DNA of 53,385 nucleotides, from contig JADZDR010000066.1 in NCBI GenBank assembly GCA_020850945.1, forward strand, positions 1 through 53,385, read 5' to 3'. Below are positions 5,731 through 24,948 of the stretch, one piece after another. Positions within the stretch are counted from its first letter, which is position 1; each line of letters opens with the position of its first letter. The notes below the pieces were generated by a model. It was not told the DNA's origin. It made no database searches and saw only the letters and a program-made list of their open reading frames with translations. The position numbers and the translations under genes were made by a program. This stretch comes from Acidimicrobiia bacterium. Lineage in GTDB: Bacteria; Actinomycetota; Acidimicrobiia; UBA2766.

Positions 5731-5781
5731 TCCTGCCCCCGCGTGGGGCAGTTCGGGTATCCCCGCCGATCCATGTCCAGC

Positions 5782-8141: not shown

Positions 8142-8173
8142 GCGGAGACCTCCCCCTTCTCGTGGGCGAGGGG

Positions 8174-8920
8174 TCAGACTCTCCCACGGAGCGCTCTGCG
8201 ACGCGCATGGTGCCGTTCTTGCATGTCGATGTTCTTCAGATAGCGACGCATGCGCAACAGCTCGCGGAAGGCCGTGAAGATGACCGACACCTTGGCGCCA
8301 CTCTGCTCGCCGCCGGCCCGCGGGAAGTGGTTCACGCCGACTTCGGCCACGCCGTAGCCGGAACGCCCCAGCTTGATCATGAGCTCGGTGTTGATCAGGG
8401 CTCCGACGGACTCGATGCTGAGGCCTTCGAGGGCTTCCCGCTTGAAGATCTTGAACGCGCAGTCGATGTCGCGTACGGGGACGTAGAACAACACGCGCAC
8501 GAGGTAGTTCCAGCCCTTGGCGATGAAGCGCCGGTTCCACGGGTCCTGACGCTCGATCCGGTAGCCGCACACGACGTCGGCACGGTCGAGGAACGAGATG
8601 AGTCGCTCGAGCTCCCACACGTCGAACTGCAGGTCCGAGTCGGTGAAGAAGACGTAATCGAGGGAACCTGCCTGGAGGCCGGTCTTCACGGCCTGGCCGT
8701 ATCCCAGGTTCGTCTCGTGGCGGATGAGGCGCACGCCGGGATCGAGCTCGGAGAGCTTCTCGACGATCTCGGCCGTACGGTCGGTCGAGCCGTCGTCGAC
8801 GACGATCACCTCGTAGGCGTCGCCCCCGCAGATCGAGCGCAGGACGTCACGCATCTCCGTGACGGCCTGCTCGATGTTCTCCTCTTCGTTGTGCGCGGGA
8901 AAGACGGCCGAGATTCGCAT
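8174..8920 (-). CDS. Family 2 glycosyltransferase, dolichol/polyprenol-phosphate mannose synthase-like
   Basis: The 248-residue product resembles DPMS/GtrB enzymes, which transfer a sugar from a nucleotide to polyprenyl phosphate on the cytoplasmic face. Motifs in order are ISAVFPAHNEEENI (about 2-15), VIVVDDGSTD (about 40-49), FFTDSDLQFD (about 88-97, metal site) and the acceptor-side DIDCAFKIFKRE (about 150). No C-terminal membrane pair is present. The ATG at 8920 has CGGAG six bases upstream and starts at the conserved strand; an alternative start 14 codons upstream lacks support. It may supply polyprenyl-phosphate-sugar for the GT-C-like protein encoded divergently 147 bp away. Confidence 0.9.
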   Translation of the reverse strand: MRISAVFPAHNEEENIEQAVTEMRDVLRSICGGDAYEVIVVDDGSTDRTAEIVEKLSELDPGVRLIRHETNLGYGQAVKTGLQAGSLDYVFFTDSDLQFDVWELERLISFLDRADVVCGYRIERQDPWNRRFIAKGWNYLVRVLFYVPVRDIDCAFKIFKREALEGLSIESVGALINTELMIKLGRSGYGVAEVGVNHFPRAGGEQSGAKVSVIFTAFRELLRMRRYLKNIDMQERHHARRRALRGRV

Positions 8921-9067
8921 CAGATCTCCGGGACGGTGCGGCACCGCAAGCTGGAACGGCACCTCTCGCCTGAGAAGTTCGGTGCCGCCGGGACCTGATC
9001 CTCCCCTGGAGGTGCGGAGATCAGTGCCCCGCAGGGAGTGCGACCGGATCTGCAGAAACCTCTCCGG

Positions 9068-11224
9068 ATGGACATGTCCTGGCCCTCCTACGCCGCGGCT
9101 CTGCTGATCCTCGTCCTTCAGACGGCTCCCGTCGTCGTCTCCGCATCCTACGCCGCTCGCGTCCTCGTGGATCCGGACCGGCCGCTGCTCCGTGTGGGAA
9201 CAGGCCTCCTCGTCGCCTTCGTCGAGATCCTCGTCGCGCTGCAGGCAGTCGGAGCCGCCGGCTTTCTGTCACGCTGGCCCGTGCTCGTGGCCGCCTGGCT
9301 CGTGGCGGGGCTCGGAGGCGTGGCGGCGTACGCCATCGCGAGGCACAGGGGACCGCGGGTCGAGCCTGCCGCGGCCGAGACCGCCGCCACAGCCGTCGAC
9401 ACAGACCCGGCCCGCGCTGTCGGCCCCATGCCGCCCACCGGGACCGGCTCGCGGACGGCTCGCTACGTGTGGCTCGGGACGATCGTCGTCCTCACCGGCG
9501 CGTTCGTGACGGCACTCGTCTCGGGCCTCGTGAAACCCTCCTTCTCGACGGACACCGTGAACTACCACCTGCCGGCGATCGCGAACTGGATCAGGGACCA
9601 CTCGATCTGGACGATGCGCCAGTGGCAGTTCAGCGTGTTCCAGAACGGCTATCCGATGAACTCGGAGCTGATCGCGGCCTGGTTCGTGATCCCGTTCGGA
9701 CGCGACTTCCTCGTGAATCTCGCCCCCCTCGCCCAGGCCGTGTTCGCCGCGGTCGCGATCGGAGCCCTCGCCGAACAGCTCGGCCTGCGCGCACGCGATG
9801 CCGTCCTCGTGGGGGCGGCCGGCCTGTTCATCCCAATCGTCTCCACGCCGGCGCTCGGCGCGGTCGGGAGTGACCTGTTGCCGATGGCCGGCTGGGCGCT
9901 TGCCCTCACGTACGTGCTGCGTTGGCGGGACACCGAGAGCGGCCTCGACGTCGGCCTTGCCGGCCTCACGCTGGGGCTCGCGCTCGGGGCGAAGATCACG
10001 GGCACGGTCTATGTCGCCGTTTTCGGCGCGTCGATCCTCGTTCTCGTCCTCTGGAGAAGGCGCTGGCTCCAGGGACTCGTCATCCTTCCGCTTGCGGTCG
10101 CCGCGCCCGCACTCGTCTGGTTCATGCGGAATTGGGTTCTCGAAGGCAACCCTCTCTGGGCGTTCGATGTCCTCGGCTTCCGCGCCGGTTACTGGCGCGA
10201 CAACGGCGACGACTGGTCGGTGTGGGAGTACGTCGTTCGAGGCGGCCCGGCCGCCTGGGTCAGGGTCACCATCGACTACGTGGTCGGTCTCTTCTGCCTC
10301 GCCCCCCTCCTCGTCTTCGGCGTGCCCGGCTTCCTCCGCACGCTGCGGGCGTTCGGCTCGCGCTTCGACCGGGCGCGGGTCTGGCTCCTCTGTGGGATGC
10401 CGGTGCTCGCCCTCGCCCTCACGCTCGCCATGCCCTGGACGGGCGGAAACGACGGCTACAACGTGCCTGCCTCCGGCCGGTACGTGGCAGGATCGTTCGC
10501 CATCCTCCTAGCTGCTGCCATGGCGGGTGCGTTGCGGGGCAGACGCTCGGACGTGTGGCGAGTCGCGCTCCTCGTCGCCCTTGCGACGAACGTGGCCGTC
10601 TCGTTCCTGTCACCCCTCCTGCCGGGTTTCCGGATGTCGACGCGGGGCCTCGCCGCCGGTGCCGTGGCCGCATGCGCGGTCGGCCTGGTTCTCCTGCTCC
10701 GTGATCGCGGCGGGCGTGGCGACCACGCATCCCGGATCCCACGCGTGGCGACGGTCCTCACCGCGACAGTCCTCGTGATGCTGCTCGCAGTCGTCTCCGC
10801 GCCGGCATGGAGCGCGAACTGGTACCGCTCCATGTCCGTGCCGGGTCTGGGCCGGTTGTACCGGGATGTCCAGGACCGGCCGATCTCGAAGAGCAGGATC
10901 GCCGTTGCCGGTCTCGCCCAGACCTACCCCCTCTACGGTCGTGATCTCTCGAACGAGGTGGTCTGGGTCGGAGCCGACGACATCGGCTCACCGTGGGTGA
11001 GGAGCGACAGAGACGGCTGGTTGGACGCCCTGGAGGAGTCGTGCACGGACTACGTGGTCGTGTTCGACGACCCCACACACTGGCTCTCGCCCGTCATCGA
11101 ACGTGCCTTCGTGCGGGGCCGTTTGCAGGGACTCGAACCCGTGTTCGAGACGACCACACCGGTCGAGGGCAAGGACCGCCACCTGGGTCTCTACCGCGTG
11201 GCTGATCTTCCGGCCTACTGCTGA
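9068..11224 (+). CDS. Polytopic membrane protein, GT-C glycosyltransferase-like (ArnT/PMT type)
   Basis: This is a membrane protein of about 718 residues with a dozen or more hydrophobic helices and a large loop ending in a soluble C-terminal part. The segment FSTDTVNYHLPAIANWI after the third or fourth helix resembles the first extracytoplasmic loop of GT-C enzymes, which carries a catalytic Asp and uses polyprenyl-phosphate sugars. It is divergent from the DPMS-like gene that could make such a donor. Start choice is uncertain: ATG 9068, ATG 9074 and GTG 9038 are all possible, and none has a strong ribosome site. Its 3' end overlaps the convergent response-regulator gene by 10 bp. Confidence 0.7.
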   Translation: MDMSWPSYAAALLILVLQTAPVVVSASYAARVLVDPDRPLLRVGTGLLVAFVEILVALQAVGAAGFLSRWPVLVAAWLVAGLGGVAAYAIARHRGPRVEPAAAETAATAVDTDPARAVGPMPPTGTGSRTARYVWLGTIVVLTGAFVTALVSGLVKPSFSTDTVNYHLPAIANWIRDHSIWTMRQWQFSVFQNGYPMNSELIAAWFVIPFGRDFLVNLAPLAQAVFAAVAIGALAEQLGLRARDAVLVGAAGLFIPIVSTPALGAVGSDLLPMAGWALALTYVLRWRDTESGLDVGLAGLTLGLALGAKITGTVYVAVFGASILVLVLWRRRWLQGLVILPLAVAAPALVWFMRNWVLEGNPLWAFDVLGFRAGYWRDNGDDWSVWEYVVRGGPAAWVRVTIDYVVGLFCLAPLLVFGVPGFLRTLRAFGSRFDRARVWLLCGMPVLALALTLAMPWTGGNDGYNVPASGRYVAGSFAILLAAAMAGALRGRRSDVWRVALLVALATNVAVSFLSPLLPGFRMSTRGLAAGAVAACAVGLVLLLRDRGGRGDHASRIPRVATVLTATVLVMLLAVVSAPAWSANWYRSMSVPGLGRLYRDVQDRPISKSRIAVAGLAQTYPLYGRDLSNEVVWVGADDIGSPWVRSDRDGWLDALEESCTDYVVVFDDPTHWLSPVIERAFVRGRLQGLEPVFETTTPVEGKDRHLGLYRVADLPAYC

Positions 11225-11733
11225 TACCCGAAGCCGACCGTCTCACCGCGTGCGCGGGCCCCGTTCCCCCAGACGGACATGGTCGTGGGAACCCCGAGGG
11301 CTGTGTCGAGCTCTGCCGCGCTGTAGGTCGCAGGGGTCTCCCCCGCTTCCTGGTCGATCCCGCGATGCTGATGCACACGGAGGATGATCTCCATGAGCTC
11401 GTCGGGATCGAACGGCTTGGTCACGTACTCGTCGGCACCGAGTTCCCACGCCCGGTGGAAGTCCCTGTCGCTCGACTTGGCCGAGAGCACGATCACCCGC
11501 GGTCTCTCCGTGAGAGTCGAAAGTTGTTCGAGCACACCCCAGCCGTCGAGGACGGGCATCATCACGTCGAGGAGCACGACGTCCGGCCTCTCCTCGCCGA
11601 TACGGCGCAGGGCCGTCTCTCCATCGCCGGCCAGCAGAGTCTCGTAACCCTCCGCCTCCAGGTTCATGCGCAGCATGAGGAGGATGTCGGGTTCGTCGTC
11701 CACGATGAGCACGCGGGGCTTCGCGCTTCGCAT
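11215..11733 (-). CDS. Receiver-only response regulator
   Basis: The 172-residue protein is a CheY-like receiver domain (about 1-125): acidic pocket VDDEPD, phospho-acceptor Asp56 in LLDVMMP, LSAKSS switch Ser and the YVTKPFDP Lys loop. The remaining 45 residues match no DNA-binding or enzymatic output domain that I recognise, so it probably acts by protein contact or passes phosphate on. GAGG precedes the ATG. It lies 35 bp after the histidine kinase gene in the same direction, so the kinase is its likely partner, and both sit inside the glycan locus. The end overlaps the convergent membrane-protein gene. Confidence 0.9.
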   Translation of the reverse strand: MRSAKPRVLIVDDEPDILLMLRMNLEAEGYETLLAGDGETALRRIGEERPDVVLLDVMMPVLDGWGVLEQLSTLTERPRVIVLSAKSSDRDFHRAWELGADEYVTKPFDPDELMEIILRVHQHRGIDQEAGETPATYSAAELDTALGVPTTMSVWGNGARARGETVGFGYQQ

Positions 11734-11768
11734 CTACCTCGGTCTCCTGACCGTATCCTTCCCACTGT

Positions 11769-13424
11769 TCAAGCCGGGGCCGACGGTATGGCCACCTCGC
11801 GGTCCGATACCCAGTCGTCGGCAGACACCGGCCCTTCCCGATGTATCGGCAGAGTGAAGGTGAAAGCCGCGCCCTTTCCGACATCGCTCTGCACCCAGAT
11901 TCGGCCGTTCATCCCCGAGACGAGGTTCGCCGTGATGTAGAGGCCGAGACCGACCCCGCGTTGGGCCTGGCCGTCGGAACCCTGCCGGAAACGCTCGAAG
12001 ATGTGAGGCAGCTCGTCCTTGGCGATCCCCGGCCCCCTGTCGCTCACCGTGACTGCGGCCTCCTGGCCGGCCGTGGAGATGCTCACCGTCACCGGGCTCT
12101 CGCCCGAGTACTTCAGGGCGTTGTCGACGAGGTTCGTCACGACCTGCTGCACGGCGTTCGGGTCACCGCATGCGACGACAGACGCCGTGGGTGGAGCGAG
12201 GAGCTGGACCCTGGCGCCGTGCTCCCGGCCCTGGAAGGCCTTCACGACCTCACCAACGCACACGACGAGGTCCACCGGCTCCTCGCAGAGACGGTTCTCG
12301 CCCGCTTCGATCCGGCTCGCGAAGAGGATCTCGTCGATGAGCTTGAGGAGCCTCTGGCTCTGTCGCTCGATGACGAGAAGGAACTCGCCCGACTGCTCGG
12401 GGGTCATCGTGTCGCCCCGCTTGCGCAGGGTCCTGACCGATCCCATGATCGATGTGAGCGGGCTGCGCAGCTCGTGGCTCACGGTGGCCACGAACTCGGA
12501 TCGCTGCCGGTCGACCTCCTGCAACTGCGCGACGTGCTCTCGCTCGGCTTGGAAGAGGCGCGCGTTCGATATGGTCACAGCCGCGTTCTCCGCGAACAGG
12601 CCAAGGGCATGCAGGTCGTACTCGTTGAAGTGCGTCTCCCCCGCAGTCTCGTGCACGACGATCACGCCGAGGAGCTCGTCTCTGTGCACGAGGGGCACAC
12701 CCATCGCGGACTCGATGCGGGTGTGGGGGGAGACCATGCGGCTGAACGTCGCCGGGTCCGAGCGTCTGGACACGAGCAGGGGCGTTCCCTGTTGGGCGAC
12801 GAGGCCGGCGACTCCCTCACCCACGAGCACTTCGCTCGGGATCGTGTGCGAGGCCGGATCGTGCGGTGCGGCATCGTCCTGGGGGACACGGGCGCACACG
12901 GTCGTGAGGAGGTGGCGCTCGGTGTCGAGGAGCATGATCGCGCCTTCGCTCGCCTGGAGGAGGGCGAGGGCCGAGTCGAGGATCACCTCGAGCACGGAGG
13001 AGGTGTCCTGCACCGAGTTGATCGCCCGTCCTATCTCGCTCAGGACGCTGAGCTCGTTCACGCGGTTGCTGAGGGCGGAGTTGAGGACACGCTCGTCGAC
13101 CAGCGCCCGCGTGATCTTGCGCAGGTGCCTCTCCTTCTCGAGCACGTAGACGCAGAACGCCGCCGTCACCCCGAGGAAGCAGGCACGCAGGACCGGCATC
13201 TGGGCGACGTTCTCGAGCGAGTCGGGCAGTGCCTCCTCCCAGAAGGAGAGCACGACGAGCATGGCGGCGAGTGAGACGAGGAGCGCGAACATGAGCGACC
13301 AGAGCTGCTGCCGGCGCCTCTCGACGGCCTCCAGCGACGGCGTCTTGAATCGCCTCAGGCCGGCCGCGCGCGCCTCCTGCATGAGCGAGTCCTGGTCTGT
13401 GACAGGAGTTCCCGAGTGGCGCAT
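11769..13424 (-). CDS. Membrane sensor histidine kinase with GAF domain
   Basis: The 551-residue kinase has two transmembrane helices (about 43-61 and 77-95), a short coiled-coil linker, a GAF domain (about 130-290) and a HisKA domain with the phospho-acceptor His317 in VSHELRSPLTS. It ends in an HATPase domain with N-box (NLVDNALKYS), G1 (DRGPGIA) and G2 (GVGLGLYI) boxes. Almost no extracytoplasmic loop exists, so the signal is probably membrane state or a small ligand bound by GAF. An AAGGGCAGG site precedes the ATG. It is in an operon with the receiver-only regulator and divergent from a GT4 gene, which suggests control of glycan production. Confidence 0.94.
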   Translation of the reverse strand: MRHSGTPVTDQDSLMQEARAAGLRRFKTPSLEAVERRRQQLWSLMFALLVSLAAMLVVLSFWEEALPDSLENVAQMPVLRACFLGVTAAFCVYVLEKERHLRKITRALVDERVLNSALSNRVNELSVLSEIGRAINSVQDTSSVLEVILDSALALLQASEGAIMLLDTERHLLTTVCARVPQDDAAPHDPASHTIPSEVLVGEGVAGLVAQQGTPLLVSRRSDPATFSRMVSPHTRIESAMGVPLVHRDELLGVIVVHETAGETHFNEYDLHALGLFAENAAVTISNARLFQAEREHVAQLQEVDRQRSEFVATVSHELRSPLTSIMGSVRTLRKRGDTMTPEQSGEFLLVIERQSQRLLKLIDEILFASRIEAGENRLCEEPVDLVVCVGEVVKAFQGREHGARVQLLAPPTASVVACGDPNAVQQVVTNLVDNALKYSGESPVTVSISTAGQEAAVTVSDRGPGIAKDELPHIFERFRQGSDGQAQRGVGLGLYITANLVSGMNGRIWVQSDVGKGAAFTFTLPIHREGPVSADDWVSDREVAIPSAPA

Positions 13425-13526
13425 GCCTGCCCTTGTGTTCGCACATCACCCATTCGAGTGACTTACTCCTGAGTCGGACAACCCAGGCCGGGACTTGAGG
13501 CCCACAACCCGGACACGCTGGTTCGG

Positions 13527-13554
13527 TTGCGAGGATCGGGTCCGGGAGTACAAC
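13527..13554 (+). promoter_or_regulatory. Possible promoter TTGCGA-N16-TACAAC for the GT4 gene
   Basis: A -35-like TTGCGA (13527-13532) and -10-like TACAAC (13549-13554) are separated by 16 bp and lie about 32 bp before the GT4 ATG, in the 162-bp divergent region with the histidine kinase gene. It is plausible for a primary sigma promoter but is only a pattern match. Confidence 0.35.
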
Positions 13555-13586
13555 ATTCGCAGACGAGAACACCGACGAGGAGAGGG

Positions 13587-14768
13587 ATGACCGAGGCCGT
13601 CGCGACGGCAACGCAAGTAACCGGACGCCAAGTGCTCTTCGTCGAACGCGGAGGAAGCGGTGGGCTCGCCCAGTTCGCACACGCGCTCTGCGCGACGCTC
13701 GCTGCCACCGGAGCGGAGGTGACGCTTCTCACCTCTCCCCGTGAGCCCGTCGTGGCCCTCGGGGCCCCGTACCGCGTGGTGGAACGCCTGCACCACCTGT
13801 ACGACCGGCACAAGGCGGCCTCGCTGGGACTCGGCATGCTCGATTCCCTCATCGTGATCGGTGTCGCTCTCACCTCGCGCACGCGGGTCGTGGCGATCCA
13901 TTCCGCGATCCCGGCCCGCTTCGACCTCGTCCTGGTCTCGCTCCTTCAGATCCTCGGACGTCGCGTGGTCTGGATCGCGCACAACCTGGCCGAACGTGAT
14001 TGGGGCAGGCAGCTCAAACCCTGGGCGCAGCGCCTGTACGCGCGCGTCGACGCCGTGGTCAGCCTGTCGGACTTCGAACGTCGCAATCTGATATCGCAGG
14101 TGCCCGCAGCGACGACACGTGTCTTCCACATCCCCCACGGCGAGTACCGCCATCACATCGGCACACGTCTCGACCAGAGCGACGCCCGTGCTCGCCTCGG
14201 CCTGCCCGCCGACGTCCCGATCTTCCTCTTCTTCGGATATCTGAAGAAGTACAAAGGCCTCGACCTCTTCCTCGACGCCCTGTCCGCACTCTCCCGTCAG
14301 GGCGTCCCTGTGCACGGTGTGGTCGTGGGCCAGCCGAGTGCCCAGGTTCCCGTCGACGCAGTCGAGGCGCAGGTTCGAGACCTCGACCTCGGGCGGGTCG
14401 TCACCTTTCACCCCGGTTACGCCACTCCCGAGGAGACCGACGCCTGGTTCTCGGCGGCCGATGCCGTCGTCCTGCCCTACCGGTCGGCCACACAGTCGGG
14501 TGTGCTCCACTTGGCCTACGGCTACGGGAGACCCGTGGTCGTGACCGACGGGGGCGGGATGGCCGAGTACGTGACCGAAGGAGAGACCGGTGAGCTCGCC
14601 CGACCGGACGACGCCGCCTCGCTCGCCGCCGCGATGGCGCGGCTGATCTCGTCCCCGCAGCACCTCGGCAAGATCCAGAGCCACCTTGTCGAGTCTCCCC
14701 CCGAGCGCTTCGAGTGGCCCAATGTCGCGGCTGCGTTCGCCGCAGTGCTCTGGCCAGGTGAGATCTGA
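13587..14768 (+). CDS. Family 4 glycosyltransferase
   Basis: This retaining GT-B glycosyltransferase of 393 residues is likely to extend a lipid-linked glycan at the inner face of the membrane. The N-terminal half contains FVERGGSGGLAQFAH, the glycine-rich acceptor-side loop. The C-terminal half starts with IFLFFGYLKKYKGLDLFLDAL, the classic donor-domain entry with Lys. It then has a VLPYRSATQSGVLHLAYGYG segment in place of the canonical EGxxxxxxEA region, ending in GRPVVVTDGGGM. The ATG at 13587 has GAGGAGAGGG directly upstream; an in-frame extension of 20 codons has no ribosome site. Its stop is 3 bp from the convergent methyltransferase gene. Confidence 0.9.
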   Translation: MTEAVATATQVTGRQVLFVERGGSGGLAQFAHALCATLAATGAEVTLLTSPREPVVALGAPYRVVERLHHLYDRHKAASLGLGMLDSLIVIGVALTSRTRVVAIHSAIPARFDLVLVSLLQILGRRVVWIAHNLAERDWGRQLKPWAQRLYARVDAVVSLSDFERRNLISQVPAATTRVFHIPHGEYRHHIGTRLDQSDARARLGLPADVPIFLFFGYLKKYKGLDLFLDALSALSRQGVPVHGVVVGQPSAQVPVDAVEAQVRDLDLGRVVTFHPGYATPEETDAWFSAADAVVLPYRSATQSGVLHLAYGYGRPVVVTDGGGMAEYVTEGETGELARPDDAASLAAAMARLISSPQHLGKIQSHLVESPPERFEWPNVAAAFAAVLWPGEI

Positions 14769-14771
14769 GGG

Positions 14772-15695
14772 CTAACTCGCGGGGACCGACCACACGCGGA
14801 GGCTCTCCATCATCCAGAGCCATTGCAGGGGCATGCGGACGACGCGCTTCGCCATCTCTTTCGGATCGTTCGTCCGGATGGCACCGCCCGTCTCGGCGGC
14901 CGGAGCGATCGTGCTCTCACGATCGATCGCCCGCCACTCGCGCGGACGCAGACTGCGGTTCTCGATGTGAACCGCCCGCAATCCCGCCTTCTCGAGAGCC
15001 ATGACGATGTTCCGGCGGTTGAAGTACCAGAGGTGGCTGGGGGGCACGAAGTTGCGCCACTCCTTGCCGAGAAGGTGGCGCGGCAGAGCGTTGTCGTTCG
15101 GGACGGCGATCGCGACGAGTCCGCCGCGTCGCACGAGAGTCCCAGCCACACGCAGTGACTCCACCGGGCGGGGCATGTGCTCCACACTCCCGATGGCGGT
15201 CACGAGATCGAAGCTCGCGGGGTCGAGCGAGTTGCCCTCGAGGACGCCGCGGCGCACATCGAGATCCAACGCCTCCCGGCAGAACTGCACAGCCCACTTG
15301 GACGTCTCGAGGCCCACCACGTCCCAACCCCGCTCTCTCGCGCAGAGAAGCATGGGTCCGTTGCCGCACCCGACATCGAGGAGGCGGCCCGGCCCACCGA
15401 GGCGGCGCTCCGCGAACTCGAGGTACTCGGCGTTGGCCTTTATCGCCTGCGCGGGCAGCGTGTCGGCTGCCGCCTGTGACCTCACCCCGCTCGACCGGTT
15501 GATGGATGTCCAGCCGAACCAGTCGTGGTCGTCGTACTGGGCTGCGAGCTCCTCGTCAGAGGGAATGGGGTGCACGTATGCGAGTTTGCAGGCTCGGCAC
15601 CTGAAGATGTCGTAGCCGTTCTTCTCGAAGTCGCGGCGTGCTTCGCCTCCGCAGAGGGGGCACGGGGTACCCGTCGAGGGCATGGATCGACTCAC
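14772..15695 (-). CDS. Zinc-ribbon class I SAM-dependent methyltransferase
   Basis: The 307-residue protein has an N-terminal zinc ribbon (CPLC at about residues 12-15, CRAC near 33-36) followed by a class I methyltransferase fold with motif I LLDVGCGNGP near residue 107. The arrangement is common in methyltransferases of polysaccharide and sugar-modification loci, where they cap or decorate a sugar. The GTG at 15695 has CGGAG five bases upstream; the ATG four codons later (15683) is the alternative. It is convergent with the GT4 gene and lies 89 bp downstream of purF on the same strand. Substrate unknown. Confidence 0.88.
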   Translation of the reverse strand: MSRSMPSTGTPCPLCGGEARRDFEKNGYDIFRCRACKLAYVHPIPSDEELAAQYDDHDWFGWTSINRSSGVRSQAAADTLPAQAIKANAEYLEFAERRLGGPGRLLDVGCGNGPMLLCARERGWDVVGLETSKWAVQFCREALDLDVRRGVLEGNSLDPASFDLVTAIGSVEHMPRPVESLRVAGTLVRRGGLVAIAVPNDNALPRHLLGKEWRNFVPPSHLWYFNRRNIVMALEKAGLRAVHIENRSLRPREWRAIDRESTIAPAAETGGAIRTNDPKEMAKRVVRMPLQWLWMMESLRVWSVPAS

Positions 15696-15784: not shown

Positions 15785-17272
15785 TCAGCGCGCCGCACCC
15801 TCCGCGAACAACTCGAGGGCGTCCTTGGCGACAGGATGAGCGACAGAGAGGGGATAGTCGCCCGTGAGACAGGCCGTGCAGAACCCCTGTTCGGAGCCGA
15901 CTGCCTGCAGCAGGTTCTCGATGCCGAGGTAGGCGAGCGAATCGGCGCCCACGTAGTCGCGGATCTCACCCACCGACATGTTCGCGGCAAGCAGCTCGGA
16001 CCGCCGTCCCGTGTCCATGCCGAAGTAGCACGGCCACCTGTAGGGGGGAGACGATATGCGGCAGTGCACCTCTTCGGCGCCGGCTTCGCGTAGTAGGGCG
16101 ACGATCTTGCGCGTGGTCGAACCCCGTACGATCGAATCGTCGATCACGACGAGGCGCTTGCCGCTGATGTTGTCCTCGAGCGGGTTGAGCTTCATGCGGA
16201 CGCTCCGGTCCCGCAGCTCTTGCGTGGGGGCGATGAAGGTGCGCCCGACGTACCTGTTCTTCACGAGGCCGTCTCCGTAGGGGATGCCCGATTCCATGGC
16301 ATAGCCCTGCGCGGCGGGTATGCCGCTCTCGGGGACCGGCATCACCATGTCGGCTTCGACGGGCACCTGCCTCGCGAGGAGGCGTCCCATCCGCTGACGG
16401 GCGGCATGGACGCTGCGTCCGTACAGATTCGAGTCGGGTCGCGCGAAGTACACGAACTCGAAAACGCAGAGGTGCGGATCGGCCCTGTCGAAAGGATGAT
16501 GGGAGTGGATACCGTCGGCATCGAGGACTATCACCTCGCCCGGCTCCACTTCACGCACGAAGTGGGCGCCGACTATGTCGAGAGCGCAGGTCTCCGAGGC
16601 CAGGACCCAGCCGTGCTCGAGGCGTCCGAGGCAGAGGGGCCGGAACCCGAACGGGTCACGCACCCCGACCACACACGTCTCGTCCATGAGAACGAGGGTG
16701 AATGCACCCTCGAGACGGGGGACGACCTCGCACACGGCCGCTTCGAGCCGGCTGGCCTCGCCCTCCCCGCCTTGGTTCTCGACAGCGACGAGATCGGCGA
16801 TCACGTCGCTGTCGCTGGTCCCCGCCTGCGAGCCCGGTACGGCGGAGAAGAGTGTGCCCGTTTGGGCGAAGAGCTCCTCGGTGTTCGTGAGGTTGCCGTT
16901 GTGGGCGAGGGCGAAGCCGCATTGGCCCGCCGTCCTGTAGGCGGGCTGACTGTTCTCCCATGTGTTCGAACCGGTTGTCGAATACCGCACATGGCCAATG
17001 CCGAGATGGCCCTGGAGAGGAGAAAGGCGCTGCTCGTCGAACACTTGAGTGACGAGACCCAGGTCTTTCACGACCGTGACCGTCTCACCGTCGGAGACCG
17101 CGATGCCGGCGGATTCCTGCCCGCGGTGCTGCAGCGCATGCAGACCGAGGTAGGTGAGTGAGGCGGTCGGGGCTCCGGGAGCGTAGATCCCGAAGACGCC
17201 GCAGGCTTCTCGGGGTTTCGAGTGAGCATCCGGCAAGGGACTTGAGATCGATGAGGACGGCTCGGTGCGCAC
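15785..17272 (-). CDS. purF: Amidophosphoribosyltransferase (glutamine PRPP amidotransferase)
   Basis: PurF catalyses the first committed step of purine synthesis (PRPP + Gln to phosphoribosylamine). The proposed 495-residue form has a 23-residue propeptide that would be cleaved to expose nucleophile Cys24 in ACGVFGIYA. The PRPP motif VVIDDSIVRGSTTRK is present. Cysteines in ETCALDIVG, WPCYFGMD and GFCTACLTG match the four iron-sulfur ligands of the Bacillus-type enzyme. I chose the GTG at 17272 because the upstream ATG (17386) overlaps the divergent sugar-transferase start. The GTG has no Shine-Dalgarno but a -10-like GATACT six bases before it, so the mRNA may be leaderless. Confidence 0.95.
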   Translation of the reverse strand: MRTEPSSSISSPLPDAHSKPREACGVFGIYAPGAPTASLTYLGLHALQHRGQESAGIAVSDGETVTVVKDLGLVTQVFDEQRLSPLQGHLGIGHVRYSTTGSNTWENSQPAYRTAGQCGFALAHNGNLTNTEELFAQTGTLFSAVPGSQAGTSDSDVIADLVAVENQGGEGEASRLEAAVCEVVPRLEGAFTLVLMDETCVVGVRDPFGFRPLCLGRLEHGWVLASETCALDIVGAHFVREVEPGEVIVLDADGIHSHHPFDRADPHLCVFEFVYFARPDSNLYGRSVHAARQRMGRLLARQVPVEADMVMPVPESGIPAAQGYAMESGIPYGDGLVKNRYVGRTFIAPTQELRDRSVRMKLNPLEDNISGKRLVVIDDSIVRGSTTRKIVALLREAGAEEVHCRISSPPYRWPCYFGMDTGRRSELLAANMSVGEIRDYVGADSLAYLGIENLLQAVGSEQGFCTACLTGDYPLSVAHPVAKDALELFAEGAAR

Positions 17273-17278
17273 GGCATC

Positions 17279-17289
17279 AGTATCGCACA
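17279..17289 (-). promoter_or_regulatory. Extended -10 element (TGTGCGATACT) for purF
   Basis: Reading leftwards, TGTGCGATACT ends 6 nt before the proposed purF GTG. This places transcription initiation at or next to the start codon, as in leaderless actinobacterial genes. No good -35 is visible. TGTGCGATA also occurs upstream of purS (1027-1035). Confidence 0.45.
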
Positions 17290-17384
17290 GAAGATGCCAT
17301 GGGCCCCGGATCGACGGTTCCCCGTGTTGACGGGGAGACGACACCGCTGAGGGCAATTGGGAGGAACCCCGGGAGACCGCATCC

Positions 17385-19106
17385 ATGGCCGTGACGACAG
17401 GCCGGGAGCCGCTGCCGGCCGGGAAGGCGGACGGCGACCTGGGAGCAGAAGAAGATGGGGACTCGGTCGCGATGACTGATGCGCTGGGAGAGAGGCAAGC
17501 CGTCGAACGCGGTCAGGACAGCGAGGAGCAGCTCGCGGGCTCGACTGTGCCGACTCCCACCTCGCCGGGCCGGGCGAGGGATTCCGCCCCGGCCGGAGTC
17601 ACACCGATCTCGGCCCGGCTCCGACAGGTCCACGCCGCCCAGGTGCCGTCCCTGCGGACAGGTAGACGGAGCAGGCGGCCCACAGCGCGCGACGCCGTTC
17701 GGGGTGTCCTCAACTGGGTGGCACGCCTCTCGCCCACCGCGCGCCTCGCCACGGACGTGATCGCCCTCTTCATCGCGTTCTCCCTCGTGATCCAGATCCG
17801 GCTCCACCTCCCCCACGTCCCCATCCGCCTCTCGGTCATCCCGCTCGAGTACCTCTTCCTCGTCTACCTGCCCGTCCTCGCCGTTCTCCGGCTGTACGCG
17901 CCGTCGCACGGAGTGCACCTCGGATCCCTCGTGAGCGAGCTCCCCAAGCTCGTCGCCGCCTCCGTGGTCACCGCAGCCCTGATCGCGGGCCTGCTCGGAC
18001 AGCGCCTCGATCTCGGCAGGGCCGCGTTCACCGCTGCCTTCACCCTCCTGTGCCTGGTCCTGGCCCGATCCGGCCTCCACGTCATCGCCTCCCTCTTGCG
18101 GCGCCGCGGTTACGGGGTGCGCAAGACCCTCATCGTGGGCAGGGGCAAGTCCGTGCCGAGCCTCGCGTCGAAGCTCGCCCGTCATCCCGAGATCGGACTG
18201 CGGGTCGTCGGCGTCATCACCCCGGATGCCTCTGATACGGCCGGCGACGAGACCGCAGGTCCTGCGACCATCGCAGGTCACCCCGAGGATCTCCCCGAGA
18301 TCGTCACGCGCCTCGACATCGAGCAGCTCATCCTCGTCCCCGAGGACGCCGACACGCAGTTCGTGGCGGACTGCTTCATGGCAGTGGACGGCTTCCGGGT
18401 CCACGCGTCACTCGTGCCGCCCCTCCAGGACTTCCTGCTCTCGCCGAGCAACGTCGAACAGATCGAGGGCATCCCCCTGATCAGCCTGGGGCGTCTCTCC
18501 TACGCGCCCCGCATGATGCCCGGCAAGCGCGCCTTCGACCTCATCGGAGCTGTCGCCGCCCTCGTCCTCTTCTCCCCCGTCCTCCTCCTGCTCGCAGCGG
18601 CGATCAAGTTCGAGGACCGCGGGCCCGTGCTCTTCAGACAGAAGAGGGCCGGCTACCGCGGCCGTTACTTCCGCATGATCAAGTTCCGCTCGATGTGCGT
18701 GGACGCCGAATCCAAGCTCGCCGACCTCGCCGACAAGAACGAGTCGGACGGCCTCCTCTTCAAGATGAAGGACGACCCCCGCATCACGCGCGTCGGTGCG
18801 TTCATCCGCAGGACCTCACTCGACGAGCTGCCCCAGTTCCTCAACGTCCTCACGGGCGACATGAGCCTCGTCGGCCCACGTGCGTTGCCCGTGGAGGTGG
18901 AGCACTTCGGGGACATCGCCATCAAGCGGCTCAACGTGCGGCCAGGTGTGACGGGATACTGGCAGGTGCTCGGGCGCAGCGACCTCACGTACGACGAGAT
19001 GGTGAAGCTCGACCTCGCCTACATCCAGAACTGGTCGATCTGGGCCGACATCCAGCTCATCCTCAAGACCCTGCCCGTGATCTTCGGCCGCAAGGGCGCG
19101 TACTGA
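17385..19106 (+). CDS. Polyprenyl-phosphate hexose-1-phosphate transferase (priming glycosyltransferase)
   Basis: This 573-residue enzyme of the WbaP/WcaJ type starts glycan repeat units by moving sugar-1-phosphate from a nucleotide to undecaprenyl (or decaprenyl) phosphate. It has a disordered N-terminus of about 110 residues, four transmembrane helices (about 120-240), a CoA-binding-like Rossmann domain (about 245-370) and the catalytic domain from about 380. That domain shows KRAFDLIGA, FRQKRAGYRGR, MIKFRSM, the RRTSLDELPQFLNVL box and MSLVGPRALP, then RPGVTGYWQVLGRSDL. GGGAG lies nine bases before the ATG. It heads the EPS operon, 112 bp from the divergent purF start. Confidence 0.94.
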   Translation: MAVTTGREPLPAGKADGDLGAEEDGDSVAMTDALGERQAVERGQDSEEQLAGSTVPTPTSPGRARDSAPAGVTPISARLRQVHAAQVPSLRTGRRSRRPTARDAVRGVLNWVARLSPTARLATDVIALFIAFSLVIQIRLHLPHVPIRLSVIPLEYLFLVYLPVLAVLRLYAPSHGVHLGSLVSELPKLVAASVVTAALIAGLLGQRLDLGRAAFTAAFTLLCLVLARSGLHVIASLLRRRGYGVRKTLIVGRGKSVPSLASKLARHPEIGLRVVGVITPDASDTAGDETAGPATIAGHPEDLPEIVTRLDIEQLILVPEDADTQFVADCFMAVDGFRVHASLVPPLQDFLLSPSNVEQIEGIPLISLGRLSYAPRMMPGKRAFDLIGAVAALVLFSPVLLLLAAAIKFEDRGPVLFRQKRAGYRGRYFRMIKFRSMCVDAESKLADLADKNESDGLLFKMKDDPRITRVGAFIRRTSLDELPQFLNVLTGDMSLVGPRALPVEVEHFGDIAIKRLNVRPGVTGYWQVLGRSDLTYDEMVKLDLAYIQNWSIWADIQLILKTLPVIFGRKGAY

Positions 19107-19262
19107 GAAGCGGGCCGTCACGTGCCCGGGCAGAGCAGGATCGGCCCCACGTCACACCGAAGTTGTTGGCGGCCCTACGAGGCCGGCCGGGGCACCACCC
19201 GCTCCACGCACAGTGGGGATTCGACTGGGAGACGAGGGTTCTCGACCCATAGGCAACCGTAG

Positions 19263-19997
19263 ATGGATCTCGGAAACATCCTGAGGACGATCGGCAGACG
19301 CTCGGCCCTGATCGTCACCTTCACCCTCCTCGGTATCGCCGTGGCCGGCTTCACCCAGGTCGAGCTGGGCCCGGGCGGCCTCGTCCCGAAGGCCGGCAAG
19401 TACCGCTCACAGGTGCGTCTCTTCCTCGATCTGCCGCGTGTCGACCCTGATATCGCCAACACTGCGGTGCTGAGGCTCATCACGACGCCCACCGTGCACG
19501 TCCAGGTCATCCAGACACAGGCGTTCGCGGAGGAGGTCTCCGAACGTGTGGGGGGCGCATACAGCGCCAGCGAGATCAAGGACGACCTCGTCGCATGGGG
19601 AATCATCCCCTCGTACGTCATCATCATCGAGGTGGCGGGGGACACACCCGAGGACGCGGTCAAGCTCGCCGAAGCGGCCGGGGCAACCTACGTCGACTGG
19701 CTCGCCTCGCGGCAGGACGAAGCGTCCGTTCCCCAGAAGAACAGGATGACCGCCGAGGTCGTCGAGACGCCACGGATCGAGACAGTCCAGTCCACCGGCG
19801 GTCAGGTGACCCGCTGGCTGATCTTCGGGGGTGTGGCCGGCGCCACGCTCGGCATCGTGGCTGCGTTCGGGACAGCACCGCCCGAACCGAAGGTGAAGGT
19901 GCGGCGCCTCAAGTCGAAGGGAACAGGCCATGGACCCGGAAACCAACCCGTCTTCGGCCCGGAGTCGGTACAGCGAGTCGAAGGAACCAGGACATGA
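19263..19997 (+). CDS. Wzz-like polysaccharide co-polymerase, paralogue 1
   Basis: The 244-residue protein has the layout of chain-length determinants: an N-terminal transmembrane helix (about 14-31), a periplasmic-type domain of about 150 residues, and a second helix near 180-200 followed by a basic cytoplasmic tail. It shares LxxIGRRSALIV-like entry, a SERVGGAYSASEI segment and an AGDTPEDAVKLAEA segment with the next gene, so the two are paralogues. It is shorter than typical Wzz and has no tyrosine-kinase domain. The ATG overlap (19994-19997) couples the two. A 156-bp leader region after the transferase gene holds no gene I can see. Confidence 0.72.
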   Translation: MDLGNILRTIGRRSALIVTFTLLGIAVAGFTQVELGPGGLVPKAGKYRSQVRLFLDLPRVDPDIANTAVLRLITTPTVHVQVIQTQAFAEEVSERVGGAYSASEIKDDLVAWGIIPSYVIIIEVAGDTPEDAVKLAEAAGATYVDWLASRQDEASVPQKNRMTAEVVETPRIETVQSTGGQVTRWLIFGGVAGATLGIVAAFGTAPPEPKVKVRRLKSKGTGHGPGNQPVFGPESVQRVEGTRT

Positions 19998-20770
19998 ACG
20001 TCGGTGAACTCATCCGCATCATCGCGCGGCGCTGGCTGATCGTCGTCGGATGCACGTTCGGTGGCCTGATGGTCGTGTGGTTGCTCGCCTTCAAGCCGCC
20101 CACCTTCCAGCTCAAGAGCTCGACTTACTGTGCGACGGCAACCGTGCTCATGGACAGCAAGACCCAGGGTGCCGCCGCGAGCGGCGTGCTCACGGCGATC
20201 TACGCCCGTGTCCTCAACGACGTCGAGGTCGTGAGCTCCGAGGTGATCGCGAAGAAGGCGTCGGAGAAGGTGGGCGGCAAGTACTCGCCGCTCGAGATCA
20301 TGCAGACCACCGGTGCCGAGAACGAGTTCGGCACGCAGACGATGAACATCACGTCCTGCGGTGACAGCCCGAGTGACGCTGTGCAGGTGACGAACGCCGT
20401 CGTGACCAGCTACCAGGACTGGACCGCGGAACGTCAGGATGCAGCCAACGTGCTCGGTCCGAACAGGTACGAGGTCGTCATGCTCACGGCACCGGTCGAG
20501 CCGACGTCGCCGAGCGGGTTCCCTGCAGCAGTCTGGGTGTTCCTCGGACTCGTGGGTGGACTCATCGTGGGGGTCATCGTCGCCGTCGGTGTCGAGAGCG
20601 TCCAGGCCACGAACGAGGCGCTGCCCGTCACGCGGGAAGCCGTTCTCCACAGTCCCACCGAGCCCATGTCTGGCGGTGGATTCGGACCCCAGACCGGTCA
20701 CCCGGGCAACGCCACCATGACTCTGCCTGCGGTCACGGCGGGCAGGTCACGCAGACCCCGTCGCAAGTGA
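19994..20770 (+). CDS. Wzz-like polysaccharide co-polymerase, paralogue 2
   Basis: The 258-residue paralogue of the preceding protein has a helix at about 15-32, an extracytoplasmic domain with SEKVGGKYSPLEI and CGDSPSDAVQVTNA, a second helix (about 180-202) and a C-terminal tail of about 50 residues. Two cysteines (YCATATV, TSCGDS) are absent from paralogue 1 and could form a disulfide. The ATG at 19994 is fixed by the ATGA overlap; a longer upstream frame is an overlap artefact. The pair probably forms a hetero-oligomeric ring that sets chain length or guides export for the polymerase encoded next. This role is inferred from family and position. Confidence 0.72.
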   Translation: MNVGELIRIIARRWLIVVGCTFGGLMVVWLLAFKPPTFQLKSSTYCATATVLMDSKTQGAAASGVLTAIYARVLNDVEVVSSEVIAKKASEKVGGKYSPLEIMQTTGAENEFGTQTMNITSCGDSPSDAVQVTNAVVTSYQDWTAERQDAANVLGPNRYEVVMLTAPVEPTSPSGFPAAVWVFLGLVGGLIVGVIVAVGVESVQATNEALPVTREAVLHSPTEPMSGGGFGPQTGHPGNATMTLPAVTAGRSRRPRRK

Positions 20771-20780
20771 GGCGGCCGCT

Positions 20781-23534
20781 ATGACGGAGGCGACACGCGA
20801 GGCGCCCGTCATCGAGACGATCGCGGGTGCGGGTGTGGTTCTCGTCGAGAACGACCCCAGCCCACTCGGCTCGATCGGTACCGACGCGCTCTGTGCGGAT
20901 CTCGCCGCGCGGGGGGTTCCCACAGTCCTCCTCACCGCGAAGCGGGATCGGGTGTCCCCGCTCCCGGACAGCTACGCCGTCGACATGCGTCTGCGCGCCG
21001 TCGAGGATCACGCGTTCCCGGTGCGCGTCCTCCTCCAGATCTGGAACCTGCTCGTCCTCTCGCGTGTCCTGCGCACGTCCGGCGTCAACGTCGTGATCAA
21101 CCAGGTACGCCGCCCGCGGCGGTTCGACCTCGTCCTCCTCCGCGCGCTGCACCTCATGCACCGCCGTGTCGTCTTCGCGCCCCGCCGCCTCACTCCCGGT
21201 ACCACCCCTGACAGTCGCCTCCCCCGTTTCGCCCGCAAGGTGTACCGCAAGGCGGACGCCATAGTCCTGCGCAGCCTCGCCGACTCGAGCCGCCTGCGCA
21301 TCCTGATACCGGAAGCTGCGGTCCGCAGCAGGGTGATTCCTCCAGGCGCGGTCGACGTCAGCGACGAACCGGTGGCTCCTCCCCAGAGCGAGGCCCGCCG
21401 CAGGCTCGGCCTCACCCAGCGCCAAGCCGTCGTTCTCGGCATCGCGGACGAGCCGGACGGCCGAGGCGCCGAGGACTTCATCGATGCGGTTGCGGTGCTG
21501 CGGGGTTCCGTGGAAGCGGTGCTCACAGGCACGGCAGTCGACATCCACTTTCCGAGGCTCGCGCGACGTGTCGAGGAGCTGGAGCTGACGGGCTCCCTCG
21601 AGCTCGTGCCGACGGTGGAGGTGCGAGCCCAGCCGTCCCTGTTCCTGTCCGCGTGCGACGTGGTCGTCATCCCGAACCGGCAGGTGTCCGATCCCGAGCT
21701 CGCCTCCTACGCGGCCGGGCACGCCCGGCCCGTGATCGTCACGGACGTATCCGGATTCGCCGAGGTGCTCGAGGCCGGCGTGCCCGGTACGTCTGTGAGT
21801 GCCGGCGACCCACGCGCCCTGGCCGAGGGCGTGACCGAGATCGTGTTCCCCCGCCGCAGGCTCCAGCAGGAGCACTGGGAGCTCGAGACGCGACCTCCGA
21901 AGATGCGGACCTGGGGGGAGGCCGCCGCCGGCTACGTACCCCTCCTCGATCTGCACGGCACGCGCACGGGGCGGCGCATGCCCACCCGATCGCTCAAGAT
22001 CTGGATCGGTGTCCTCTACATGTTCGTGCTGCTCGTCACGCTCGGCATGGTCGGCGCGAACATAGACAAGGGCTTCAGCGCCTTCAACATCGGGCTCATC
22101 ATGGGGATCCTCCTCCCCGCGGCTGCGCTCTTCCTGCTCCTCGTGCCCTTCGACGTGAAGTTCCTCTCCTATTGGGCTGTGCTGTTCTTCTTCGACATCG
22201 GCGTGCGGGCATTCCCCGAAATGCCCCTCCAGTACGCGCCCACCCTCATCGTCGTCGCGATGACGGTGCACCTGATCCTCGAATCCCCACCCGACAGGGT
22301 CACGCTCAAGCGCACGCGCCTCCTGCATGCGCTCCTGATCATGCAGGCCGGTTGGGCGCTGGCGGAGATGTTCAACCCGAACATGTCGGAGTGGGGATCG
22401 ACGATCAAGATGATCCGGCTCATCATCGAGCCGCTCCTGGTCTACGTGTGCGCCCTCACGTACTTCCGCAACAGCGTCAACGTGCGACGTTTCGTGGACG
22501 TCTACCTCGTCGTAGGTGGCCTCGCCGCCCTCTACGGCGTCAAGATCGCGTTCTTCGGCTACTTCGGTTTCGAGGAGGCGGCCCTGCGGGGTTCCATGGC
22601 GATGTCGGAATCACGGAACATCGGCACGATGGGCGCCCCGCAGGTCTGGGGGATGTGGATGATGCACGTCGCCTTGCTGGGATTCGCCCTGCTCATCGAG
22701 CGGCGTGCGTGGCGGCACAAGTGGTGGCTGCTCATCGTGGTGCCGGCCGCCGTGCTCAACGTGATCACCGCCGGACAGAGGATCCAGTTCCTGGGAATCG
22801 CCGTGGCGGTTCCCCTGATCATCGCGCTCTCGATCGGGAACCCCGCGACGCGCCTGCGCGCCGTTGTCGCCCTGTTCCTCGCAGGCACCGCGGCTGTGTT
22901 CGTCTGGTTCTGGATCCCGGGCGAAGGGTCGAACCGTGCTGCCCTCAGCGGCAAGGACCCGATCACGGCCGCCCGCATGAAGCTCGCCACGCTCAAGGAC
23001 CCCGACTCCGACGAGGAAGTGCTCGAGGCCCGCCTCACGAACGGAGGGAACACCTTCGAGGCCGTACTCGCGCATCCTCTCGGTGGCGGCACCGGCTTGA
23101 CCTACGTCGCGAAGATCTCCGACCCGATCTCGCAGGGAAACCCCACGCAGGTGATCGGCCAGACCGACGTGCAGTCGACCCGGGCCCGCAACCAGATCCC
23201 GATGCAGACGGGTGACTTCTTCTTCATCAACTGGATGGCGGAACAGGGTGTGGTCGGGGTCATCCTCATCGGGTTGATCTTCGGCCTCATGGTGCTCTGG
23301 AACCTCTACGCGGCCACTCATGCCCGCGTCCCTGTGCATCGTGCCCTTTGTGCCACGGGCTTCGTGTGGGGGATCGCGTACATCATCAACAGCAACACAA
23401 ACGACGCGTTCTTCTCGCCGGTCTCGTCGTCGGGGTTCTTCGCATTCCTCGCCCTCGCGGTCTGCATCATGGCCATCGAGGACAAGGAGCTCGGTCCGAT
23501 CGAGCCGACTGCCCCGCTGCCCTCACCGGGGTGA
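20781..23534 (+). CDS. Fusion of GT4-like glycosyltransferase and O-antigen polymerase/ligase-like membrane domain
   Basis: The 917-residue protein has two parts. Residues 1 to about 390 look like a GT-B family 4 glycosyltransferase: VLVENDPSPLGSIGTDALCADL at the acceptor side, an RRRLGLTQRQAVVLGIAD donor-domain entry and a CDVVVIPNRQ..ELASYAAGHARPVIVTD tail. From about residue 403 there are roughly a dozen transmembrane helices and a long extracytoplasmic loop (about 720-810), like Wzy/WaaL O-antigen polymerases and ligases. GAGGCGG precedes the ATG, 10 bp after the second Wzz-like gene. The donor-domain motifs are weak, so the GT half may be regulatory or inactive. I know of no common protein with this order. 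Confidence 0.75.
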   Translation: MTEATREAPVIETIAGAGVVLVENDPSPLGSIGTDALCADLAARGVPTVLLTAKRDRVSPLPDSYAVDMRLRAVEDHAFPVRVLLQIWNLLVLSRVLRTSGVNVVINQVRRPRRFDLVLLRALHLMHRRVVFAPRRLTPGTTPDSRLPRFARKVYRKADAIVLRSLADSSRLRILIPEAAVRSRVIPPGAVDVSDEPVAPPQSEARRRLGLTQRQAVVLGIADEPDGRGAEDFIDAVAVLRGSVEAVLTGTAVDIHFPRLARRVEELELTGSLELVPTVEVRAQPSLFLSACDVVVIPNRQVSDPELASYAAGHARPVIVTDVSGFAEVLEAGVPGTSVSAGDPRALAEGVTEIVFPRRRLQQEHWELETRPPKMRTWGEAAAGYVPLLDLHGTRTGRRMPTRSLKIWIGVLYMFVLLVTLGMVGANIDKGFSAFNIGLIMGILLPAAALFLLLVPFDVKFLSYWAVLFFFDIGVRAFPEMPLQYAPTLIVVAMTVHLILESPPDRVTLKRTRLLHALLIMQAGWALAEMFNPNMSEWGSTIKMIRLIIEPLLVYVCALTYFRNSVNVRRFVDVYLVVGGLAALYGVKIAFFGYFGFEEAALRGSMAMSESRNIGTMGAPQVWGMWMMHVALLGFALLIERRAWRHKWWLLIVVPAAVLNVITAGQRIQFLGIAVAVPLIIALSIGNPATRLRAVVALFLAGTAAVFVWFWIPGEGSNRAALSGKDPITAARMKLATLKDPDSDEEVLEARLTNGGNTFEAVLAHPLGGGTGLTYVAKISDPISQGNPTQVIGQTDVQSTRARNQIPMQTGDFFFINWMAEQGVVGVILIGLIFGLMVLWNLYAATHARVPVHRALCATGFVWGIAYIINSNTNDAFFSPVSSSGFFAFLALAVCIMAIEDKELGPIEPTAPLPSPG

Positions 23535-23541
23535 GGGTGCT

Positions 23542-24948
23542 GTGATCCGGGTCTTCGGGGTCGTATGTGCCGGTCTCGTCTCCCTGCCGCTTCTCCTCTA
23601 CGGCTTCTTCGTGCACGACGGCGTGCTGCAGGTGACTGAGCCCGCCGGTGCGCTCCGTGGCGCAGACCTCGCCGCCGAAGGCATCGCGAACTGGCAGGAT
23701 CCCCCCCGCGGGGCGGGTGTGGCCCCGTTCCGGTGGGGGGTCTCGGAGCCGATGGAGCGCCGCGCCACCGTACCGCTCGACCTCGCCAAGTGGCGGCCGG
23801 TGTACGAGATGCTCGACCCGGATCTCGTGCGCGTGTTCCTGTGGTGGGACGCCGTCGAGCCCGTCCCCGGACGCGTGGCTGCTTCCTCCCGGCCCGCCCA
23901 GGTCATGGCCTTCGTGGAGGGGGGCGGCTGGGACGCGTATGGCGTCTTCTTCCAAGCGCCGTTCTGGGCCTCCGAGGGGGGGTGGACGCGGCGCCTCGGA
24001 GGTGCCCGGATCTGGCGGTACGACCCACCCCACCTCTACGACGACCCGCGTGGTCCGTTCGCCGCCTATCTCGAGCTCGCCGCGCAGCAGTGGCCTGGAC
24101 TCGACGTCTGGCAGATCTGGAACGAGCCCGACTATCCGCACGGAGCCCAGTCCGCCCAGCACAACCCCCTCGTCTACAGATCGTGGCGGGGCACGGCCAC
24201 CGAATACGGCCGTTTCGTCGGCACCGGGGCCGCCAAGGTGCGTGAAGTGGCCCCCGCCGGACTCGTGGCGACCAACGTGTCGAACGGCCCTTACAGCCGG
24301 ACTGCCTACACCGTCGCCGGCACTGACGACATCGACCTCTTCGACGTGCATGTCGCGTCCGGCAAAGGCCGGCCGAACGTGGATTACGCCCTCGACAGGA
24401 TGATCGCGATCATCGCCCGCCAGAAGGCGGCCGCCGAAGCGGCGGGAGCCGTCGCACCTCGCTTCTCCGTCTCGGAGTTGAGCTACCCCTACACCGACGC
24501 CGGCGCGGGCGACCAGGCGGACTTCGTGGCGAAGACGCACGCCGTCGGCGCCGCACTCGGCTGGGACATGCTCGTGTGGTGGGAGGTCGGCCCGTCCGAT
24601 CCGGACTACTACGTCGACACCGGCATCGTCGCATCCGACGGGACACCGCGACCGGCCGGTGCGGCTTGGATGTTCTCCAAGGCGACGCTTGCGGGCATGC
24701 AGCCCCTCGGCCTGCGAGGCGACGGGCACGATGTCCGGATCGCCGTGCTCGCCCAGCCGGACGCACCCGCCGGAGGTCGCGAGGTCTGGGTGGCGTGGAC
24801 TGTGTCGGGACAGGGCAGCGTGACGTGGCCCCTCACGTCACCTCCGGCGGCGGTCCACGACGCGACAGGGACGCCCGCCGGGACCGTCCAGCCCGGGGAG
24901 ACCGTGCAGCTCACGCGAGGCGCCCGCTACTTCGTGCCCACCACCTGA
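23542..24948 (+). CDS. Membrane-anchored/secreted clan-A-like glycoside hydrolase
   Basis: The 468-residue protein has an N-terminal hydrophobic segment (about 5-22) that would anchor or export it, then a (beta/alpha)8-type catalytic domain. The pair DVWQIWNEPDYP (acid/base Glu, near residue 195) and RFSVSELSYPYTD (candidate nucleophile Glu, near residue 312) is the clan GH-A pattern, closest in feel to GH39/GH5. A small beta domain ends the protein. GAGGG lies five bases before the GTG at 23542; seven bases separate it from the fusion gene. Position suggests trimming or release of the exported polymer, as in other EPS loci. Substrate unknown. Confidence 0.78.
   Translation: MIRVFGVVCAGLVSLPLLLYGFFVHDGVLQVTEPAGALRGADLAAEGIANWQDPPRGAGVAPFRWGVSEPMERRATVPLDLAKWRPVYEMLDPDLVRVFLWWDAVEPVPGRVAASSRPAQVMAFVEGGGWDAYGVFFQAPFWASEGGWTRRLGGARIWRYDPPHLYDDPRGPFAAYLELAAQQWPGLDVWQIWNEPDYPHGAQSAQHNPLVYRSWRGTATEYGRFVGTGAAKVREVAPAGLVATNVSNGPYSRTAYTVAGTDDIDLFDVHVASGKGRPNVDYALDRMIAIIARQKAAAEAAGAVAPRFSVSELSYPYTDAGAGDQADFVAKTHAVGAALGWDMLVWWEVGPSDPDYYVDTGIVASDGTPRPAGAAWMFSKATLAGMQPLGLRGDGHDVRIAVLAQPDAPAGGREVWVAWTVSGQGSVTWPLTSPPAAVHDATGTPAGTVQPGETVQLTRGARYFVPTT

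Follow-up and report, generated by a model that had tools for sequence, protein, structure and literature searches.

The window, a 53,385-nucleotide stretch of DNA from an Acidimicrobiia bacterium, holds five co-directional genes at 17385–24948, an arrangement proposed by the first-pass annotation and confirmed by ORF calls. The genes, with the two halves of the fourth given separately, are as follows.

17385–19106, + strand: priming polyprenyl-phosphate sugar-1-phosphate transferase (TIGR03025, EPS_sugtrans; CoA_binding_3 and Bac_transf domains)
19263–19997, + strand: polysaccharide co-polymerase (PCP) 1, Wzz/CapA-like, with a transmembrane (TM) helix near each end and without a kinase domain
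19994–20770, + strand: PCP 2, a paralogue of PCP 1, whose predicted fold matches KpsE/Wzc
20781–23534, + strand: GT4–Wzy fusion, with a GT4-like domain (about residues 1–390), predicted to be cytoplasmic, and an 11-TM O-antigen-polymerase domain (about residues 397–905)
20844–21896, + strand: degenerate GT4 domain of the fusion, in which donor-site basic residues are replaced by D (residues 223–227, DEPDG) and the glycine loop, His and TQSGV/EX7E motifs are lost
21969–23495, + strand: Wzy-like polymerase domain of the fusion, with an outer loop of about 110 residues and HPxGGGxG and ExG motifs
23542–24948, + strand: PslG-like glycoside hydrolase, membrane-anchored or secreted, with invariant E195 (WNEP) and E312 (SELS)

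Spacing within the operon is, in order, 156 bp, a 4-bp overlap, 10 bp and 7 bp. Codon-position GC is of coding type for genes 1, 2, 4 and 5; the ORF of gene 3 (PCP 2) is absent from the list given by that filter and is supported by its orthologues and family fold. A start downstream of 17385, perhaps at ATG 17472 or later, is probable for the priming transferase, whose first ~120 residues lie outside the family model. The hydrolase frame can be read from 23320, and the GTG at 23542 is its likely start since the conserved part begins at about 23545. Promoter and terminator scans of the locus were uninformative.

Upstream, at 4327–15695, lie further glycan genes, separated from the operon by a divergent purF.

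4327–8141, − strand: acyltransferase 3, GT2 and FAD amine-oxidase-like protein, probable genes of repeat-unit modification and assembly
8174–8962, − strand: DPM1-like GT2, conserved in genome G002
9038–11224, + strand: large membrane protein, probable GT-C, conserved in G002
13527–14768, + strand: GT4 whose donor motif is intact (YLKKYKG, TQSGV); the degenerate GT4 has no closer relative in this genome
14772–15695, − strand: SAM methyltransferase of the same neighbourhood
15785–17386, − strand: purF ORF, divergent neighbour of the operon, also beside it in G002 and G003

The closest genome to that of the window (G000) is G001, 'Actinobacteria bacterium ATB1' of the Actinomycetota. In two other genera of the family (G002 and G003) the block is syntenic, comprising divergent purF, a histidine kinase and the operon, extended by the GT4 gene in G003 and by the DPM1-like GT2, GT-C-like and GT2 genes in G002. 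The order of the operon genes is not due to chance, because it recurs in these related genera. Strong matches to the fusion and to the hydrolase occur in all four family members and in none of the 391 other genomes of our class sample (395 genomes); the fusion is 68% (G001), 36% (G002) and 37% (G003) identical to the window protein. The next polymerase relative outside the family (G386, 2.6e-28) is unfused, and a phylum-wide sample yielded no further fusion and only distant unfused polymerases. Several long frames were considered as additional fusions and rejected: those of G018, G053 and G033 are GT4 genes extended by sequence that is out of frame or unrelated, and that of G386 is a stand-alone Wzy whose amino terminus reads out of frame through an adjoining GT gene. 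The G003 block has two insertions, a methyltransferase between the priming transferase and PCP 1 (L039:9860-10660) and a sulfatase-like gene between the histidine kinase and purF (L039:4106-6607), the latter possibly a polymer-modifying or polymer-degrading enzyme.

The priming transferase matches TIGR03025 at 3.6e-117, above the cut-off, and scores under the cut-offs of the WcaJ and WbaP families. PCP 1 and PCP 2 are 29% identical paralogues, both with a membrane helix near each end and neither with a kinase domain. Matches to TIGR01006 are weak (1.7e-5 and 0.002, far under the 296-bit cut-off), and the Wzz family is matched, also weakly, by three of seven PCPs. An AlphaFold model of PCP 2 (pLDDT 70.8) has as its best PDB fold matches KpsE and Wzc, both PCPs. 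The closest general type is the Gram-positive CapA/CpsC/YveK group (TIGR01006), whose members are likewise short, with a TM helix at each end and no kinase domain; the locus proteins depart from this group in their weak score, their tandem arrangement and the lack of an adjacent partner kinase gene. PCP 2 carries two outer-side cysteines, C46 and C122 (window numbering), which could form a disulfide; C122 is kept in all second-type PCP orthologues, C46 in those of the window and G002. In G002, a single ORF of ~549 residues (L040:6101-7750) joins two first-type modules in tandem, giving that locus three PCP modules: the fused first-type pair, then one second-type module.

One hydrophobic segment lies at the N terminus of the hydrolase, whose relation to PslG is remote (2.3e-10 by profile). 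E195 aligns with the WNEP glutamate of PslG, and the invariant E312 comes to lie no more than a few residues from the TEWG region of PslG; by alignment, both GH39 catalytic glutamates thus appear to be present, the position of the second being approximate. In PslG the catalytic residues are E165 and E276 (PMC9075953), and the enzyme acts within the Psl machinery together with PslA, PslD and PslE (PMC6813494). Psl production depends in important part on PslG hydrolytic activity, exerted alongside the priming transferase and PCP machinery (PMC6813494, PMC9075953). The Psl locus of Pseudomonas aeruginosa therefore offers a parallel for what the hydrolase may do here, uniting as it does a priming transferase (PslA), a PCP (PslE) and a GH39-type hydrolase (PslG) in one locus; it differs in being Gram-negative, with outer-membrane export (PslD), and the likeness of PslG to the window hydrolase is remote.

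The fusion has ~406 residues ahead of TM1, followed by about 11 TM helices and a loop of ~110 residues near the carboxy terminus. Pfam Wzy_C (PF04932) matches two of its orthologues (best 3.6e-10), which identifies the C-terminal domain as a Wzy-type polymerase; the window protein itself falls below threshold, at 28.5 bits against the curated cut-off of 31.7 bits in a scan of its own genome. For comparison, a cluster in the sister-family genome G004 runs priming transferase, Wzz-like, stand-alone Wzy, Wzx, GT4 and GT4, with Pfam matches for Wzy (PF04932, 2.4e-27) and Wzx (PF13440, 3e-86). Aligned by hhalign, the Wzy domain of the fusion and the G004 Wzy show no significant relation (probability 3%), and the profile comparison of the window and G004 PCPs is weak (63%). 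Because the direct alignment is not significant, we draw the kinship of the two Wzy proteins from Wzy_C and position.

Given that PF04932 spans both ligases and polymerases, the domain could instead be a ligase that attaches the glycan to the cell wall or to protein, and the nearby DPM1-like and GT-C-like genes could serve protein or wall glycosylation. We consider this unlikely, as the adjoining genes encode two PCPs, which act with polymerases, and the G004 cluster shows the same Wzz–Wzy pairing.

The amino-terminal half of the fusion is recognizable as GT4 by PF13692 (9e-11) and PF00534 (1.9e-6). An AlphaFold model of the whole fusion, built from four sequences, is poor (mean pLDDT 50.7); we used it solely for GT-B assignment, as weak support, and in FoldSeek this low-confidence model matches MshA at 5e-7. 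The nearest relative in the same genome is the neighbouring GT4 at 13527–14768 (30%), which retains the donor motif YLKKYKG and a TQSGV segment; nearly all other aligned GT4s of the class that cover the donor site retain a basic residue and, after it, KG or K. The corresponding columns of the fusion read ADEPDG in the window, ADEIDG in G001 and TDSRDG in G003, which puts acidic residues at the two basic positions. Changes extend to the glycine loop, to the TQSGV/EX7E segment and, except in G003, to the His of the AH motif. The fusion of G002 is without the donor-binding C-terminal half of the GT4 domain, and the fusion itself remains. Since the model of the fusion is poor, the state of this site is read from the alignment. 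The GT4 domain appears, on these sequences, to be catalytically dead, a pseudo-glycosyltransferase. The first-pass annotation had described a polymerase fused to a glycosyltransferase-like domain; the fusion is borne out, and the degeneracy of the domain, which that annotation missed, makes for a narrower oddity than it claimed.

Some GTs that look like pseudoenzymes turn out to be active. Were the fused GT4 active with an unusual donor site, one polypeptide would add a sugar and then polymerize the flipped unit. Membership of the GT4 family (by PF13692 and FoldSeek) is in keeping with this, as is selection on the domain: dN/dS is ~0.26 in the GT4 part versus 0.17 in the polymerase part (G000 versus G001; approximate values, with dS near saturation), suggesting that the GT4 half is under purifying selection, approximately measured, despite loss of the donor site. 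The scheme is nonetheless very improbable. Three genomes have acidic residues at both donor-phosphate basic positions, with the EX7E/TQSGV and glycine-loop elements altered; G002 lacks the donor-binding half yet keeps the fusion; and the two active sites would face opposite sides of the membrane. The GT4 domain is predicted to lie in the cytoplasm, opposite the site of polymerization, from its place ahead of TM1 and from the way in which polymerases of this kind are usually oriented.

Most simply read, the domain is a pseudo-glycosyltransferase retained for a binding role and not for sugar transfer, perhaps as a cytoplasmic module that docks the repeat-unit enzymes, or that docks or senses the lipid-linked unit. 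A fuller scenario, tentative and in our estimate short of even odds, is that a GT4 of the locus was duplicated, fused to Wzy and stripped of catalysis, becoming a cytoplasmic domain that, by allostery or docking, informs the polymerase of the supply of repeat units, with the paralogous PCPs forming a mixed length-setting ring. A search of open-licence literature found no report of a GT–Wzy fusion or of a pseudo-GT in a Wzx/Wzy-type pathway, which is weak evidence of absence.

The five-gene block contains no flippase, Wza or kinase, as had been stated, and in none of the window, G002 and G003 does a Wzx adjoin the operon. A Wzx in the same locus is usual for Wzx/Wzy pathways, not universal. The only flippase-family gene recognized in the window is a distant murJ at 47388–49094. 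A second MurJ-family flippase is encoded in the genome (L047:8207-9886); the window copy is kept in G002 and G003 (46–53%). No Wza (PF02563) was found in the genome, and Gram-positive controls of the same search were also without it; absence of Wza is expected because this actinobacterium belongs to a single-membrane lineage. The conserved operon includes no ABC transporter gene (Wzm/Wzt or KpsM/KpsT).

Looking for flippase genes elsewhere, as the first-pass annotation had proposed, identified three Wzx-family flippases in the genome, a result that speaks against a flippase-less system. Only one of the three (G000:C50:13916-15613) is conserved in all four family genomes; those on C44 and C16 are not conserved in the family and were rejected as partners. 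Identities of the C50 flippase to its G001, G002 and G003 counterparts (72/41/38%) have the same spread as those of the fusion (68/36/37%). Outside the family its matches, at 22–27%, include some on G053:C58, G004:C11 and G018:C31; homologues of the locus priming transferase and GT4 lie on these contigs as well. On these sequence grounds the C50 protein is a candidate partner; it is unlinked to the locus, and joint conservation across four related genomes is weak evidence that the two act together.

The same three contigs carry Wzx/Wzy clusters from the same class, made of parts like those of the locus: a priming transferase (41–45%), GT4 (~30%), a Wzy_C polymerase and a Wzx. A Wzz-like PCP is a further point of likeness in G004:C11, where a single such protein was identified, G004 being alone in this among the three clusters. 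Unlike the locus, all three have a stand-alone Wzy, keep Wzx in the cluster, and have no such hydrolase and no GT fusion. By the C50 relatives and the G004 cluster, then, the parts of the locus correspond to those of a standard Wzx/Wzy cluster with its flippase separated.

The claim that the locus matches no standard Wzy or ABC system, and so is an undescribed one, is thus not supported: the outside relatives of the family-conserved Wzx include genes of standard clusters. A new export system without a classical Wzx, with the repeat unit carried across by the fusion, by MurJ or by an ABC exporter, could draw on the lack of an adjoining Wzx in any of the three genera, on the two MurJ-type proteins of the genome and on KpsE, a component of an ABC export system, being among the best PDB matches of PCP 2. 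Its probability is nevertheless slight. A Wzx-family protein is conserved in four of four genomes and has outside relatives that include the Wzx of standard clusters; PCPs, Wzy and a priming transferase together are the Wzx/Wzy signature; Wzc, too, matches the fold of PCP 2; and MurJ is accounted for by peptidoglycan synthesis.

From the protein families, synteny, the conserved flippase and the loss of the GT donor site, we conclude, with a probability of about three in four, that the locus is the polymerization and length-control core of a Wzx/Wzy exopolysaccharide pathway in this family of the Actinomycetota, with its flippase in trans and a pseudo-GT on Wzy. We infer the steps and their order from family membership. 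The priming transferase would load the first sugar-phosphate onto polyprenyl phosphate, and the GTs encoded next door would finish building the repeat unit. The unit would be flipped by a Wzx whose gene lies elsewhere, the C50 protein being the candidate, and the Wzy domain would polymerize it outside the membrane, where the two PCPs would set chain length and the PslG-like hydrolase may trim or release chains. The pseudo-GT4 would stay in the cytoplasm, probably as the docking site of the polymerase for the synthesis enzymes or the lipid-linked unit. That the genes could together prime, polymerize, size and trim one glycan, as was first suggested, fits every annotation. For sanxan of Sphingomonas sanxanigenens, a working Wzx/Wzy pathway is described whose genes lie at separate places in the genome (PMC5399355); the scattered genes are a point of likeness, the organism is unrelated, and no GT–Wzy fusion is mentioned in the parts of that account consulted here (PMC5399355).

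On the best reading, the new element of the locus is the apparently dead GT4 fused to Wzy, and the rest is a rearranged known Wzx/Wzy pathway. In such pathways it is poorly understood how cytoplasmic synthesis of the repeat unit is coupled to polymerization across the membrane, and a polymerase with its own, apparently inactive, cytoplasmic GT domain provides a natural handle on it. If the fuller, tentative scenario holds, the Wzy polymerase would contain a regulatory pseudo-glycosyltransferase, an arrangement of which we found no description in the open-licence literature. For annotation, a seemingly flippase-less actinobacterial EPS locus that can be explained by a displaced Wzx is a reason for caution.

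The genome carries other glycan loci. One, the third such cluster (L041; G000:C44:1-11170), encodes a priming transferase, several GTs and a Wzx-type flippase of its own, and is not conserved in the family. A second polysaccharide locus (L042, L046; G000:C4:99000-118071) encodes a Wzz plus P-loop kinase-like protein, a DUF4012 protein, a DegT aminotransferase and a priming transferase, along with a protein that matches Wzy_C weakly. There is no kinase at the five-gene locus; the Wzz plus P-loop protein of this second locus (C4:99312-100793) resembles BY-kinases, scoring under the TIGR01007 cut-off.
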